Shown here: positions 33,931-39,913 of the stretch, in pieces
Position numbering within the stretch: position 1 is the first letter of the stretch
How the letters are laid out: every line of letters begins with the position of its first letter
Source: Gammaproteobacteria bacterium
GTDB taxonomy: Bacteria > Pseudomonadota > Gammaproteobacteria > HK1
Length of the DNA: 64,000 nucleotides
Assembly (NCBI GenBank): GCA_022824305.1
Contig: JAJEAD010000011.1
Coordinates: forward strand, 186,001-250,000
Direction: 5' to 3'
The notes under the pieces: generated by a model
Seen by the model: the letters and a program-made list of their open reading frames with translations, nothing else
Databases searched by the model: none
Told to the model about the DNA's origin: nothing
Position numbers and translations under genes: made by a program

Positions 33931-34542
33931 TCAGACCTCGACCGTGACGCCGAACTCGGCCGCCGCGTCCTCGAGCCAGGACCACAGGTAGCGGGCGAAG
34001 CTGCGCTGGATGTAGAGGTCATAGGCGGGAGCGTCGTCGGTCTGGTGCAGCAGGACGTGGCATCGGGCGAACTTCGACTGGGCCACGCTGCCGGCGCGAA
34101 AGCGCGAGGGGTGCAGATCGAGGTGACACCCCTTCTGGAGCACACTCCGCGCGTGCGCACCCGACAGCTCGACAACCGCGCGGGAATGGCTCACGTCCAC
34201 CACCGCGACATGCAAGGGCGCGAGCGCATCTCGGAGGCGCGAGAGGACTTCCTCGCTCCGCTCGTCCGGAAGGACGGCGAGCCACTCGTCCGGCCCGAGC
34301 CAGAGCAAGGTCCGGTCGCCATTTCGTGCTGACATCCCCGACTCGAGCGGCGGACGGACTCCCAGCACCCCTTCGACCGCTTTCTCGAAGTCCGCGCCGG
34401 GGCCGCCGCGCAGGCAGAGCTGGGCGCGGGGAGCGCACTCGCGCAGGATCACGCCGGCTCCCCGCGCAGGTCCCGCGCCCGCCTTCGCCGCGAGGCCGAG
34501 GGCGGCGAGCGCGGACTGACGCAGGTACTCGCTAGCGGGCAT
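33931..34542 (-). CDS. soxG: Sarcosine oxidase gamma subunit SoxG
   Basis: This 203-residue protein belongs to the SoxG/GcvT-related family: LWLGPDEWLAVLPD, VVDVSHSRAVVELSGAHARSVLQKGCHLDLHPSRF and YDLYIQRSFARYLWSWLEDAAAEFGV. SoxG is the small subunit of heterotetrameric sarcosine oxidase. The ATG at 34542 (MPASEYLRQSAL) was chosen over the open frame to 34650. In the usual operon soxG follows soxA directly; here a toxin-antitoxin pair of about 550 bp lies between them, so soxG may have lost or changed its transcriptional link. Confidence 0.88.
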   Translation of the reverse strand: MPASEYLRQSALAALGLAAKAGAGPARGAGVILRECAPRAQLCLRGGPGADFEKAVEGVLGVRPPLESGMSARNGDRTLLWLGPDEWLAVLPDERSEEVLSRLRDALAPLHVAVVDVSHSRAVVELSGAHARSVLQKGCHLDLHPSRFRAGSVAQSKFARCHVLLHQTDDAPAYDLYIQRSFARYLWSWLEDAAAEFGVTVEV

Positions 34543-34646
34543 GTGACCGGTCTTGCCGTGGGCACGAGAGCACGGAGACACCGGTGACGATACCGGCGGC
34601 GTGGCAGCCCCCACACCCACGACTCCGGATGCCGCGTGGAATACCG

Positions 34647-34910
34647 TCACCCACGTCCGTAGGCCCGGCTGCGGTGAACGACCCTCACTACCACGATGTC
34701 AGTCCCCGTCGATCCCCGGGTGTACAGAATGCGCCAGTCTCCGACTCTGAGCCGCCAGACTCTCGGACTCCGTCCCCTGAGGCGCTTGACGTCGCCCTCC
34801 CACGTACGAAGGTAGTGCTCGATCGCTCCCATGATGCGCTTTCGGGTCGGCCTGTCGAGTCTCTTCAGGTCGTGAAGCGCACGCCGAGTAAACGAAACGG
34901 CTTCGCTCAG
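34647..34910 (-). CDS. RelE/ParE-family toxin, probable CTG start
   Basis: The conserved part reads VSFTRRALHDLKRLDRPTRKRI, GAIEHYL, VWRLRVGDWRILYT and VVVRVVHRSRAYGRG, a complete RelE-type fold of 87 residues. The first ATG (34832) would remove the N-terminal strand and helix. In frame upstream there is no ATG, GTG or TTG, but a CTG at 34910 overlaps the antitoxin stop as CTGA, mirroring the ATGA/GTGA junctions common in this genome. A CTG start with translational coupling is therefore likely; decay of the start codon is the alternative. Confidence 0.7.
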   Translation of the reverse strand: MSEAVSFTRRALHDLKRLDRPTRKRIMGAIEHYLRTWEGDVKRLRGRSPRVWRLRVGDWRILYTRGSTGTDIVVVRVVHRSRAYGRG

Positions 34911-35197
34911 AGATCGAGCTCCCGCTTTACCTCGTCCAGACCAAGCACCCGCCCGGCGACGACGTCCGCCAATCCCTCCTCCAGAAGACGTTCGCCCTCC
35001 GGGGCGAGTTCATCGCTCTCCTCCGGCGCATCCGCCAGGTGCCGGGCAAAAGCATCGCCCCGCTTCGAGAGAAACTCCAGGTACCGGGCCGCAGCGTGTA
35101 TCTCGGCTTCCGGCAATCGATCCACGAGGCGCATGAGCCCATCCCGATCGTATTCTTCCGTTCCGGACACTGTGCCAATCCTCACCGTCGCGCTCAC
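34907..35197 (-). CDS. Antitoxin of RelBE/ParDE-like pair
   Basis: This is an acidic, helical protein of up to 96 residues. The C-terminal tail RLLEEGLADVVAGRVLGLDEVKRELDL is typical of toxin-wrapping antitoxins encoded before RelE-type toxins. The start is uncertain: GTG 35197 gives the full frame, and further in-frame starts lie downstream, including the ATG of MRLVDRLPEAE. It precedes and overlaps the toxin gene. The pair sits inside the sox operon, after soxA. Confidence 0.65.
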   Translation of the reverse strand: MSATVRIGTVSGTEEYDRDGLMRLVDRLPEAEIHAAARYLEFLSKRGDAFARHLADAPEESDELAPEGERLLEEGLADVVAGRVLGLDEVKRELDL

Positions 35198-35315
35198 AAG
35201 CGTACCACGACAGTCCGGTCGTCAAGCGCCGATGCTCCCGGCTCTTCGAACCGCTACGACTTCAGGAGATGAGGCGAGAGACGCCCGAATTCCATTCGCT
35301 CGGCCCTTCCTCTCC

Positions 35316-38300
35316 TCAGGCACGCAGGCGCTCCCCCTGCTCGTCGTAGAAGACGGGCGCGGTGACGGTCGCGGCCACCCTTCGCTTCGGCAGCGGCAAG
35401 ACCACCCGCTCCCCGTGGCGCTCGCGACCGCCGCGCAGGAGCGCGAGCGCGATGGAACGGCCGAGGTTGGCGCTGAAGTAGCTCGAGGTGACGTGCCCGA
35501 TCATCTTCATCGGCGGCCGGGGCAGGACCCGGTCCACGATCTGCGCGCCCTCCGGCAGCACAGTCTGCGGATCCTCGGTGAGCAGCCCGACGAGCTGCTT
35601 GCGGTCGGCGCGGCGGCAGTCCGGCCGCGCGAGCGAGCGCTTCCCGATGAAGTCCTTGTGCCGGCTCACCATCCTCCCCAGGCCGAGATCGTCGGGGGTG
35701 ACGGTGCCGTCGGTGTCCTGACCGGCGATGATGAACCCCTTCTCCGCGCGCAGGACGTGCATCGCCTCGGTTCCGAAGGGCGTGATGCCGTAGCGCGCGC
35801 CCGCCCGCATGAGGGTGGTCCACAGGTACAGGCCGTAGTCGGAAGGCACGTTGATCTCGAAGGAGCTTTCACCGGTGAAGGAAACCCGCACGATGCGGGC
35901 GGGTATTCCCGCCACTCGTCCTTCGCCCCAGCTCATGAAGGGCAGCGCCTCCGGGCCGAGGTCGATGCCGGTGGCGAGCTCCTCGAGCAGGGCCCGGGCG
36001 AAGGGGCCCGAGATCGAGGCCACCGCATACTGCTCGGTGACCGAGTTGAAGTAGACCTCGAGCTCCGGCCACTCGGTCTGGGACCACTCCTCCAGCCAGG
36101 CGAGCACCCTCGCCGCGCCGCCGGTGGTGGTGGACATCAGGAAGTGCCGGTCCGCGAGGCGCGCGGTCACCCCATCGTCGAAAACCATGCCGTCCTCGCC
36201 GCACATCAGCCCATAGCGGCAGCGGCCCGGAGCGAGCTTCCTGAACCCGTTGGTGTAGATGCGATCGAGGAACTCCGCCGCATCGGCGCCCTGGATGTCG
36301 ATCTTGCCGAGCGTGGTCGCGTCCAGGATTCCGATCGCGTTGCGGGCGGCGAGGCATTCCCGATCCACCGCGTCCTGCATCGACTCCCCCGCCGCGGGGT
36401 AGTACCAGGGCCGTTTCCACTGGCCCACGTCTTCGAAGGCCGCCCCGTGCGCCAGGTGCCAGTCGTGCATCGGGGTGGTCCGCACCGGGTCGGCGAGCTC
36501 GCCGATATCGCGTCCCGCCAGCGCCCCGAAGGTGAGCGGAGTGTAGGGGGGGCGGAACGTGGTGACCCCGACCTGCGAGGGGTCCACGCCGAGCGTCTGC
36601 GAGATGATCGCGATCGCGTTGGTGTTGCTCGTCTTTCCCTGGTCGGTGCCCATCCCGGTGGTGGTATAGCGCTTCACGTGCTCGACGGAGCGGTAGCCTT
36701 CGCGCGCGGCGAGCGCGATGTCCGCCGCACTGACGTCGTTCTGGAAATCGACGAAGTGCTTGTTGAGCGGAGCGCCAGCGCGAGACGGCGGACTGATCCA
36801 CCATGCCTCCGCCGGCTGCTCGCGTTCCCCCTCCACCTTCGGAGAGCGCAGGCCGCCGCGCTTTCGGAACCCCGCCGCGGCCGCGGCCGCCTTGCCCGCC
36901 TCGCGTCCCTCGGACAGACAGTAGGCAAGGGGAAAGGTGCCGTTCGCGGCCCCCGCCGATCGCTCGGCCTGGACCGACTCGCCGGGAACGAAGCAACCGC
37001 GTTCCGGCGAGTAGACGATTCGGCCCCGGGACTGGGAAAACAGGTGCACGGCGGGATTGAGGCCGCCGGACATGGCGACGAGGTCGCAGGACAGCCGGCG
37101 CGGCGTCCCCGTGTAGCCGGTCCGGGCCGCGTCGAGGGAGGCGAGCGTCACCTCGCGCACCCGTGCGTGGCCGTGGGCGGCGACGAGCGCATGACCCGCG
37201 AAGATCTCGATCGAGCGCTGCCTCGCCGCGGCCGCCATCGCCTCCGGGGGCCGGCTCCGCACGTCCACGATATGGACCTGCATCCCGCAGTCGGAGAGAT
37301 CGATGGCCGCCGGGTAGGCGCTGTCGTTGTTCGTGACCACCACCGCCGATTCCCCGGGACGCACCGCGTAGCGGTTCACGTACTGGCGCGCCGCTCCCGC
37401 GAGCATGATTCCGGGCCGGTCGTTGTTGCGGAACACCAGGGGCCGCTCGTGCGCGCCGGTCGCGAGCACCACCTGGCGCGCCCGAATCTTCCACAGGCGC
37501 TGGCGCGGACGCGCCCCGCCCGTTCCGGGCGGCAGGTGATCGCCGACCCGTTCCAGCGCGACCAGGTAGTTGTGGTCGTAGTAGCCGGTGACGGTGGTTC
37601 GGGGAAGCACCCTCACCTCCGGCATAGACCGCAGATCCTCGAGCGCGGAAGCGATCCATTCGACGGCGGGAGCGTCGTCGATGGCGGTCTTCGAGCCGAG
37701 CAGCCAGCCTCCCGGTTCCGACTGCTCGTCGGCGAGCATCACCCGGGCTCCCGTTCGCCCCGCGGACAGCGCCGCCGCGAGTCCCGCGGCGCCGGCGCCG
37801 ACGACGAGCACGTCGCAGTGCACGTGCATCTTCTCGTAGCGGTCCGGGTCGGGTTCGGTCGGGCTGCGGCCGAGCCCCGCCGCCCTTCGAATGAGCGGCT
37901 CGTAGTGCCGCAGCCAGAACGACGGCGGCCACATGAAGGTCTTGTAGTAGAAGCCGGCGGGAAAGAGGGGTGAGAGCAGGCTGCTCACCGCCCCCGCATC
38001 GAACCTGAGGCTGGGCCAGCGGTTCTGGCTGGTCGCGCTCAGTCCCGCGTAGAGCTCGACCTGGGTCGCGCGCTGGTTGGGCAGCGTGTACGCCCCCCGG
38101 CCGACCTGCAGCAGCGCATTGGGCTCCTCGGCGCCGGCGCTCAGGATGCCGCGTGGGCGGTGGTACTTGAAGCTCCGCCCCACCAGGTGCACCCCGTGGG
38201 CGAGCAGCGCGGAAGCCACGGTGTCGCCCGCAAACCCGGTGTAGCGCTCTCCGTCGAAGTCGAAACGCACGGCGCGCTCCCGGTCGATGCGGCCACCGGC

Positions 38301-38327
38301 AAAGAGACGGAAGCGCTGCTCGTTCAT
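35316..38327 (-). CDS. soxA: Sarcosine oxidase alpha subunit SoxA
   Basis: This 1003-residue subunit, full length for the family, has an N-terminal 2Fe-2S-fold-like region (YTGFAGDTVASALLAHGVHLVGRSFKYHRPRGI), a NAD(H)/FAD-type domain starting VLVVGAGAAGLAAAL (residues 173-187) and VVLATGAHERP, and a C-terminal GcvT-like tetrahydrofolate-binding domain from about residue 610 (WKRPWYYP, FTGESSFEINVPSDYG). The complex demethylates sarcosine to glycine, with the formaldehyde unit captured as methylene-THF. The ATG at 38327 overlaps the soxD stop (ATGA). The frame is open much further upstream across soxD and soxB, but that is a shadow. Confidence 0.95.
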   Translation of the reverse strand: MNEQRFRLFAGGRIDRERAVRFDFDGERYTGFAGDTVASALLAHGVHLVGRSFKYHRPRGILSAGAEEPNALLQVGRGAYTLPNQRATQVELYAGLSATSQNRWPSLRFDAGAVSSLLSPLFPAGFYYKTFMWPPSFWLRHYEPLIRRAAGLGRSPTEPDPDRYEKMHVHCDVLVVGAGAAGLAAALSAGRTGARVMLADEQSEPGGWLLGSKTAIDDAPAVEWIASALEDLRSMPEVRVLPRTTVTGYYDHNYLVALERVGDHLPPGTGGARPRQRLWKIRARQVVLATGAHERPLVFRNNDRPGIMLAGAARQYVNRYAVRPGESAVVVTNNDSAYPAAIDLSDCGMQVHIVDVRSRPPEAMAAAARQRSIEIFAGHALVAAHGHARVREVTLASLDAARTGYTGTPRRLSCDLVAMSGGLNPAVHLFSQSRGRIVYSPERGCFVPGESVQAERSAGAANGTFPLAYCLSEGREAGKAAAAAAGFRKRGGLRSPKVEGEREQPAEAWWISPPSRAGAPLNKHFVDFQNDVSAADIALAAREGYRSVEHVKRYTTTGMGTDQGKTSNTNAIAIISQTLGVDPSQVGVTTFRPPYTPLTFGALAGRDIGELADPVRTTPMHDWHLAHGAAFEDVGQWKRPWYYPAAGESMQDAVDRECLAARNAIGILDATTLGKIDIQGADAAEFLDRIYTNGFRKLAPGRCRYGLMCGEDGMVFDDGVTARLADRHFLMSTTTGGAARVLAWLEEWSQTEWPELEVYFNSVTEQYAVASISGPFARALLEELATGIDLGPEALPFMSWGEGRVAGIPARIVRVSFTGESSFEINVPSDYGLYLWTTLMRAGARYGITPFGTEAMHVLRAEKGFIIAGQDTDGTVTPDDLGLGRMVSRHKDFIGKRSLARPDCRRADRKQLVGLLTEDPQTVLPEGAQIVDRVLPRPPMKMIGHVTSSYFSANLGRSIALALLRGGRERHGERVVLPLPKRRVAATVTAPVFYDEQGERLRA

Positions 38328-38614
38328 CCGCCGCCCCGGGATTGGACGGGCGGCGCTTCGCCCATGCCGTACACGGCCTCGATCCGGTGGGTCACGGTGT
38401 CGCGGGCCACGTTGAACCAGCGCCCGCAGCCGTGGGTGTGCACCCAGCGTTCGAGGTTCAGTCCCTTGCGGTTGGTGCGCATGAAGAGATAGTCGGCCCA
38501 CTGCGCATCGCTCTCCGCCTCCGGCGCCGCCGGACGCACGATGTGCGCCTCGCCGCCGTAGCTGAACTCGTCCTCGTTCCGGGGCCCGCACCACGGGCAG
38601 TGGATCAGGAGCAT
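38324..38614 (-). CDS. soxD: Sarcosine oxidase delta subunit SoxD
   Basis: This 96-residue subunit has the zinc-binding pattern CPWCGPRNEDEF near the N-terminus and HTHGCGRWFNVARDT near the C-terminus, both diagnostic for SoxD. It lies between soxB and soxA, and its stop overlaps the soxA ATG. Confidence 0.93.
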   Translation of the reverse strand: MLLIHCPWCGPRNEDEFSYGGEAHIVRPAAPEAESDAQWADYLFMRTNRKGLNLERWVHTHGCGRWFNVARDTVTHRIEAVYGMGEAPPVQSRGGG

Positions 38615-38665: not shown

Positions 38666-39913
38666 TCAGTGGGCAACCGCCGCCGCGCCGTGCTCGTCGA
38701 TGAGCGCCCCGCTGGTGAATCGCTCGAGGGTGAAGGCGGCGTTCAGGGGATGCGGGGTGTCGTGGGCGATCGTGTGGGCGAAGACCCAGCCCGAACCCGG
38801 CGTCGCCTTGAAGCCACCCGTGCCCCAGCCGCAGTTGAAGTACAGATTCCGCACGGGAGTCTTGCCGATGATCGGACTGGCGTCGGGGCACACGTCCACG
38901 ATGCCGCCCCACTGACGCAGCATGCGCAGGCGCGAGAAGATGGGGAAGAGCTCGATCAGCGCCCCCATCTGCTCCTCGATGACCGGCAGGCTGCCGCGCT
39001 GCGCATAGGAGTGGTAGGCGTCGATCCCCGCGCCGATCACCAGCTCTCCCTTGTCGGACTGGCTGACGTAGACGTGGACCGCGTTCGACATGACCACGCA
39101 GTGGTGGATCGGCTTGATCGGTTCCGACACCAGCGCCTGGAGGGGATGGCTTTCCACCGGCAGGCGGAAGCCCGCCATCTCTGCGAGCACGCTCGCGTGG
39201 CCCGCGACCACCACCCCCACCTTCTTCGTCCTGATGTAGCCCCGGGTGGTCTCCACTCCCTCCACCGCACCGCCGCTGTGGCGGATGCCGGTGACCTCGC
39301 AGTTCTGGATGATGTCCACCCCGCGCGCGTCCGCTCCCCTCGCCAGCCCCCAGGCCACCGCATCGTGCCGCGCGGTCCCGCCCCGGCGCTGCAGCGAGGC
39401 CCCGAGCACCGGATACCGGGAGCTCGGCGACGTGTTGAGGATGGGCACCATCGCCTTGATCTCGGCGGGATTCAGTATCTCGGAGTCGATCCCGTTCAGG
39501 CGAATGGCATTGACGCGGCGAGACAGCTCCCGGAGGTCCCCGAGGTTGTGGGCGAGGTTCAGCACTCCGCGCTGGCTCAGCATGATGTTGTAGTTGAGGT
39601 CCCGGCTCAGGCCCTCGTAGAGGCGCAGGGCGTGCTCGTAGAGGTGGGCGCTCTCGTCCCACAGGTAGTTGGACCGGATGATGGTGGTGTTGCGGCCGGT
39701 GTTTCCGCCCCCGAGCCAGCCCTTCTCCAGCACCGCGACGTTGGTGATGCGGTGGTTCCTGGCGAGGTAGTAGGCGGTGGCGAGCCCGTGTCCGCCGCCG
39801 CCCACTATCACGACGTCGTAGGCGGACCTGGGATCCGGACTGCGCCACGCCGCCGGCCAGTTCTCGTGGTAGGAGAAGGCGTTGCGCAGCAGACTGAATA
39901 TCGAGTACTTCAT
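38666..39913 (-). CDS. soxB: Sarcosine oxidase beta subunit SoxB
   Basis: This 415-residue flavoprotein is the first gene of the sox operon. Motifs are the FAD fold [18 protein letters not shown], the conserved [23 protein letters not shown], and the C-terminal FAD contact [17 protein letters not shown]. It begins [19 protein letters not shown], the family N-terminus. SoxB carries the sarcosine-oxidising FAD and covalent FMN site. The gap to soxD is about 50 bases. Upstream lies a 204-bp divergent region shared with the second MTHFR-like gene. Confidence 0.95.

Follow-up and report, generated by a model that had tools for sequence, protein, structure and literature searches.

Introduction

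In several RelBE pairs the antitoxin gene precedes the toxin gene, an order also found in the pair described here. Pairs of the RelBE and RelE-StbE type are represented by T. thermophilus RelE (2khe) and by RelBE of M. jannaschii, P. horikoshii and M. tuberculosis. Our pair has the RelE fold and the superfamily profile in common with them; it differs in the apparent CTG start of its toxin, in an antitoxin that falls outside the Pfam and NCBIfam families, and in its location inside a metabolic operon. We refer to the whole stretch of DNA that was analysed, 64,000 nucleotides of a Gammaproteobacteria genome, as the window.

Two homologous pairs are especially informative. On an Alicyclobacillus fastidiosus plasmid (NZ_CP104069.1), the homologous antitoxin and toxin genes (NZD89_RS28825/RS28820; locus L063) overlap by four bases at the same codon as ours. 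This pair differs from ours in that the overlap reads ATGA, the toxin is annotated, with its start at that ATGA, and a helix-turn-helix gene lies upstream. The latter (1056-1247) overlaps the antitoxin gene, making a three-gene unit. Our pair, with soxA directly upstream, may be without a repressor of its own. The other pair (L004, contig G016:C162), from another genome of the same family as ours, carries CTGA at the same codon, with no canonical start (ATG, GTG or TTG) either in codons 1-26 or in the seven codons back to the preceding stop. Unlike ours, it is not part of a sox operon; it is flanked by a Rieske-type ORF and a transporter-like ORF of the opposite strand, both named by eye.

Initiation at all codons has reportedly been studied in E. 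coli, and in the Salmonella Rhs orphan system the toxin gene is said to precede the immunity gene. The accessible part of PMC7043789 describes a Salmonella Rhs orphan toxin that has a CTG start, a low level and an immunity partner, as we propose for ours; it is unlike ours in being an unrelated protein whose start is internal to the rhs gene. According to that part of the paper, a CTG-started toxin as such is already known. Overlaps of four bases are more frequent than any other kind, and coupling has been reported for them (PMC10666635 and PMC6728339, in the sections available). The termination-reinitiation pairs treated in those sections have a four-base stop/start overlap like ours, with ATGA and GTGA named, and in both papers the main text lacks the term CTGA.

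The rarity of CUG starts is well illustrated by the available portion of PMC5622118, which for bacteria and archaea counts switches to CUG at 2 of 61,358 ancestral AUG starts, 1 of 5,080 GUG starts and 1 of 2,468 UUG starts, and in which GUG and UUG starts go with stronger Shine-Dalgarno motifs. CUG initiation complexes are described as less stable in the accessible part of PMC11497404, and translational control of antitoxin-to-toxin ratios is the topic of PMC5535158, going by the part available. The portions available of PMC9955659 and PMC4825925 contain no natural CUG start. Among the matches listed, the literature searched contains no RelE-family toxin with a CTG start.

Results

A toxin-antitoxin pair between soxA and soxG

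The pair and the surrounding sox genes are arranged as follows, in the order of transcription:

38666-39913, minus strand: soxB, passing the NCBIfam cut-off
38324-38614, minus strand: soxD, passing the NCBIfam cut-off
35316..38291, minus strand: soxA, sarcosine oxidase alpha subunit, upstream of the pair (NCBIfam soxA, 1479.3 bits against a cut-off of 1164)
34543..35315, minus strand: apparent inserted stretch with the pair, delimited by absence in relatives and by GC3, with presumed exact ends
34907..35170, minus strand: antitoxin, 87 residues if the start is GTG 35170 (frame open to GTG 35197, 96 residues)
34907..34910, minus strand: CTGA four-base overlap, toxin CTG 34910-34908 over antitoxin TGA 34909-34907
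34647..34910, minus strand: putative RelE/ParE-superfamily toxin, 87 codons and stop, codon 1 being CTG 34910-34908
33931..34542, minus strand: soxG, sarcosine oxidase gamma subunit, downstream of the pair (Pfam SoxG, E 2.2e-29, above cut-off)

The soxA stop codon is at 35316-35318. The soxG product scores 126.2 bits with the NCBIfam soxG model, below the cut-off of 143.95. Judged by the N-termini of its relatives, soxG likely starts at ATG 34542, before which no Shine-Dalgarno motif is visible. Upstream of this ATG its frame continues without a stop as far as GTG 34650, where start and toxin stop share the bases GTGA, an overlap not unlikely by chance; a 36-residue N-terminal extension of SoxG, coupled to the toxin, is possible.

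Insertion of the pair at the soxA-soxG junction had been proposed from the DNA alone, and comparison with the sox operons of relatives bears this out: in 12 of 12 soxA relatives (L023-L034), soxG follows soxA with neither toxin nor antitoxin between them. In nine of these the soxG start can overlap the 3' end of soxA; in L027, L029 and L030 it lies farther downstream. The GC3 of the two genes of the pair is 0.74 and 0.72, versus 0.90 for soxA. No toxin homologue besides ours was found within 10 kb of a soxA-like match among the matches listed, and the surroundings of the L004 place (also sampled as L052, on the gammaproteobacterial MAG contig JAJDUQ010000262.1) contain no sox gene. Because the pair is absent from all 12 relatives, has a lower GC3, and has toxin homologues that elsewhere are not near sox, it is probably a recent arrival, gained by this lineage when its sox operon already existed.

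The pair is oriented in the direction of the sox operon, and its transcription may ride on that of sox, since a simple promoter scan of 34400-35500 returned nothing upstream of the antitoxin. The sole promoter-like site in that region is on the minus strand at 34858-34831, within the toxin gene, and exceeds its shuffled controls (mean 0.0). It is directed towards soxG and could serve that gene. A single terminator-like site, within the antitoxin gene, falls inside the shuffle background (mean 0.5).

A repeat search for insertion-sequence ends gave none that were clear. The sequence TGCC (minus strand) occurs at 35319-35322 and at 34538-34541, flanking the inserted stretch; it is a possible short target duplication, though four bases are weak. 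Separately, the C-terminal, GcvT-like part of soxA has 16 matches at E 1e-20 or better in the same genome, among the matches listed, suggesting many related demethylating folate enzymes there.

A RelE-fold toxin and an antitoxin without a family

The toxin matches the Pfam profile ParE_toxin PF05016 over positions 1-89 of 89 (E 1.7e-13, 51.4 bits, cut-off 23). Modelled from the CTG on with AlphaFold2, it has a mean pLDDT of 87.6, and the top Foldseek matches of the model are RelE toxins, the best being T. thermophilus RelE 2khe (E 6.1e-7; TM 0.80 by query length). Residues 5-88 of the 2khe sequence align to toxin residues 5-84. In the model the first strand comprises residues 5-7, so that the fold is complete from the CTG. 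Matches to designed TIM barrels, consisting of short repeats and weak single domains, were taken as spurious, and the padloc library contains no match. Based on the Pfam match, the confident model and the RelE matches in Foldseek, we assign the predicted protein to the RelE/ParE superfamily as a RelE-fold member.

The assignment agrees with the complete RelE fold of the original prediction and qualifies its label 'RelBE-type'. The fold stands, as does the gene order, with the antitoxin gene upstream of the toxin gene and overlapping it at CTGA. The family names do not carry over: with 24.2 bits the toxin lies below the curated cut-off of 27.9 of NCBIfam RelE_StbE TIGR02385 and is not a member of that model, and the antitoxin matches no family in Pfam or NCBIfam and so receives no RelB-family assignment. 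The C-terminus of the antitoxin homologue in L063 has a weak match to the RelB-like model NF048017, with 19 bits against a cut-off of 50.

The antitoxin model is of low confidence (mean pLDDT 70.2, pTM 0.46). Homologues of this antitoxin are found paired with related toxins in L004, L005, L006, L053, L054 and L063. The antitoxin probably starts at GTG 35170 rather than at the outer limit, GTG 35197, because AGGA lies 8 nt upstream of the former. The L004 antitoxin is also 87 residues long from the ATG chosen there, yet its frame is open to 121 residues from a GTG; for both antitoxins the chosen start is tentative.

The toxin frame and its CTG

The toxin frame (minus strand, TGA at 34647) reads LSEAVSFTRRALHDLKRL...HRSRAYGRG followed by the stop, with CTG as codon 1. 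Upstream of the CTG the frame is open for 33 further codons, throughout which ATG, GTG and TTG are absent; they are absent also from codons 1-26. The earliest canonical start is ATG 34832 at codon 27, giving 61 residues. Reading of the frame thus confirms that a CTG overlaps the antitoxin stop with no ATG, GTG or TTG available, and the homologues described below, which start at the same codon and one of which also has CTG there, support the predicted start.

The CTG is preceded at 8 nt by GGAG, a Shine-Dalgarno-like motif, and the CTG of L004 at 9 nt by AGGA. A match as good as ours is found at 13% of the 341 CTGA sites in the window, and one as good as that of L004 at 14%; the motif alone is weak evidence for a CTG start. 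Among the five ATG homologues the Shine-Dalgarno match is poorer than ours in four and equal in L063.

In five homologous pairs (L005, L006, L053, L054 and L063), ATGA is placed at exactly the codon where ours has CTGA. The CTGA of L004 stands at this codon as well, in a pair whose toxin is 50% and whose antitoxin is 49% identical to ours. To place these cases in a wider sample, 60 distinct homologous loci were compared, drawn from the 70 of 71 searched loci that had a match, with identical sequences dropped; excluded beforehand were the sox loci L022-L051, the weak own-genome matches L002 and L003, and L062 and L093, which are our place again. A canonical start within 8 codons of the CTG register is present in 55 of the 60. 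The remaining five are ours, L004, L084, L100 and L103, and the last three have no in-frame CTG near the register. L084 and L100 appear out of frame at the register. In L084 (G064:C1, near 44327) the toxin frame seems shifted relative to the antitoxin overlap, owing to a pseudogene, an error or a frameshift. L103 (G155:C11, near 395332), in a genome scored 100% complete, has a RelE-family frame without ATG, GTG or TTG near the N-terminus. Near the register, an NTGA terminates an upstream frame of 45 or more open codons in 15 of the 60 loci: ATGA in seven, GTGA in four, TTGA in two and CTGA in two. Since two separate assemblies carry the CTG, the comparison speaks against a sequencing error.

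As a control, PF05016 matches were listed in five genomes of the family, and 30 of the 47 were inspected, a sample in which the place of L004 is not included. In 27 of the 30 a script located a canonical start close to where the profile begins; at most 25 of these are clean, since L112 has a stop immediately behind the start and L131 is a partial match. The three without a canonical start are ours and the partial matches L114 and L122. The remaining four PF05016 matches of our own genome (L108, L113, L124 and L128) have canonical starts; in L128 a CTGA stands 13 codons ahead of the profile and a GTG, the likely start, 3 codons ahead. Overlaps are common in the control loci, with GTGA in eight, TTGA in three and ATGA in two, and for this reason CTGA can be regarded as the fourth letter of an ordinary overlap architecture.

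The family of the pair is rare within what was searched, and the CTG cases are two: an antitoxin-based search of viral contigs gave no relative, the phages searched gave no toxin match, the plasmids searched yielded two toxin records and one antitoxin record, and a scan of genome contigs with a single 10-residue pattern gave 10 loci, several already in the sample. An antitoxin profile detected just our own antitoxin in 398 genomes of the phylum, and another detected none in 61 relatives of G101. Our own genome (94.7% complete) contains one full toxin match and two more that are weak (E 0.002 and 0.007).

Constraint ahead of codon 27 and alternative readings

Comparison of our toxin with that of L004, a single sequence pair with high dS values, gives 13 of 25 identical residues, dN 0.36, dS 1.02 and a dN/dS of about 0.35 for codons 2-26, just 25 codons, and 28 of 58 identical residues, dN 0.46, dS 1.48 and a dN/dS of 0.31 for codons 27-84. 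The stretch before ATG 34832 looks to be held as protein like the rest of the toxin. In a tree of seven rows ours and L004 group together with support of 87/91, below the tool's bar of 95/80, and L063 forms a long branch. A single origin of the CTG in the two is the simplest reading, held with moderate confidence.

These values bear on whether the CTG is used at all. The toxin may have lost its start and be silent or nearly so, with the antitoxin persisting or the whole pair decaying after its insertion into sox. CUG is a poor start codon according to the available part of PMC11497404, and such a loss would be an easy path to a harmless toxin. A decaying gene is at odds, however, with a toxin frame that is intact across 87 codons and retains conserved family residues, with the low dN/dS of both segments, and with the occurrence of the same state in L004 at 50% identity. 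We consider a lost start unlikely.

The original prediction had itself raised the opposing case of a toxin made from ATG 34832 alone, which would be 61 residues long. Both CTG cases have a potential canonical start at codon 27, ATG in ours, where it is the first such codon, and GTG in L004; L063 has Val there. A start at this position would yield a protein without strand 1 and helix 1 of the model and with an incomplete helix 2; it would leave the conservation of codons 2-26 unaccounted for; and it is not the position used by the homologues with ATG, which begin at codon 1 and of which L005, L006, L053 and L054 have Arg as residue 27. Production solely from codon 27 is very improbable, and because selection on the protein seems to extend over codons 2-26, the true start is probably not ATG 34832 and the toxin is best read from CTG 34910. 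Hardly credible is a -1 frameshift near the antitoxin stop that yields an antitoxin-toxin fusion and no separate toxin, since the 33 open codons of the toxin frame within our antitoxin gene are matched by just 7 in L004, no slippery run is seen by eye at either overlap, and an ordinary ATG occupies that codon in five of the six other members.

Discussion

We consider it probable that the locus is a type II toxin-antitoxin pair inserted between soxA and soxG, whose toxin is made when ribosomes terminate and reinitiate at a CUG, a weak start that has been retained. The pair would have been gained horizontally. If the CTG is the start, stop and start codons overlap at CTGA as in termination-reinitiation pairs, and a ribosome that ends the antitoxin would stay at the UGA and restart at the overlapping CUG, aided by the GGAG or AGGA motif within the final codons of the antitoxin. 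The antitoxin would thereby be made before the toxin, and the poor start codon would hold toxin output low. Coupling of the two genes at CTGA is plausible, as is a low level of toxin. The toxin is presumed to be toxic and the antitoxin to neutralise it.

The overlap also dictates how the start codon is set. The stop of the antitoxin supplies the TG, so that a CTG requires just a C, and the first base of the toxin start is the third base of the last antitoxin codon. The antitoxin ORF ends in ...GAT CTC TGA, with the stop at 34907. This last codon is Leu CTC in ours and in L004, Leu CTA in L063, and Ile ATA in L005, L006, L053 and L054. For an antitoxin ending in Leu, the codons CTA, CTG, CTT and CTC give the toxin starts AUG, GUG, UUG and CUG, respectively, with the antitoxin unchanged. 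Among the 155 Leu codons of the four sox genes, CTA occurs 0 times, CTC 77 times and CTG 72 times. A CTG as the last antitoxin codon would produce GUG, a normal start, and leave the antitoxin protein as it is, yet both genes use CTC. The use of CTC may be accidental, the site being four-fold degenerate; it may have been inherited from a common ancestor; or a weak start may have been selected. It is a tentative idea, and one we would not favour at present, that CUG is the selected weak setting of a silent dial, on which a clade of GC-rich hosts, with CTA nearly unused, settled on CTC, and that further hidden CTGA toxins exist. If this were true, gene finders restricted to ATG, GTG and TTG would shorten or miss such toxins.

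An annotation blind spot is already apparent in the two cases at hand: a listing of ORFs with ATG, GTG or TTG starts yields just 61 codons of our toxin, and in L052 it contains no ORF of at least 60 codons in the toxin frame. For the sox operon, the insertion means that two genes able to overlap in nine of 12 relatives have apparently been split, in one lineage, by a toxin-antitoxin module. A polar effect of the insertion on soxG, suggested in the original prediction, is conceivable. For the toxin family, the presence of CUG at one stop/start overlap in two toxins that are 50% identical suggests that reinitiation tolerates, or uses, a start codon that is poor for fresh initiation.
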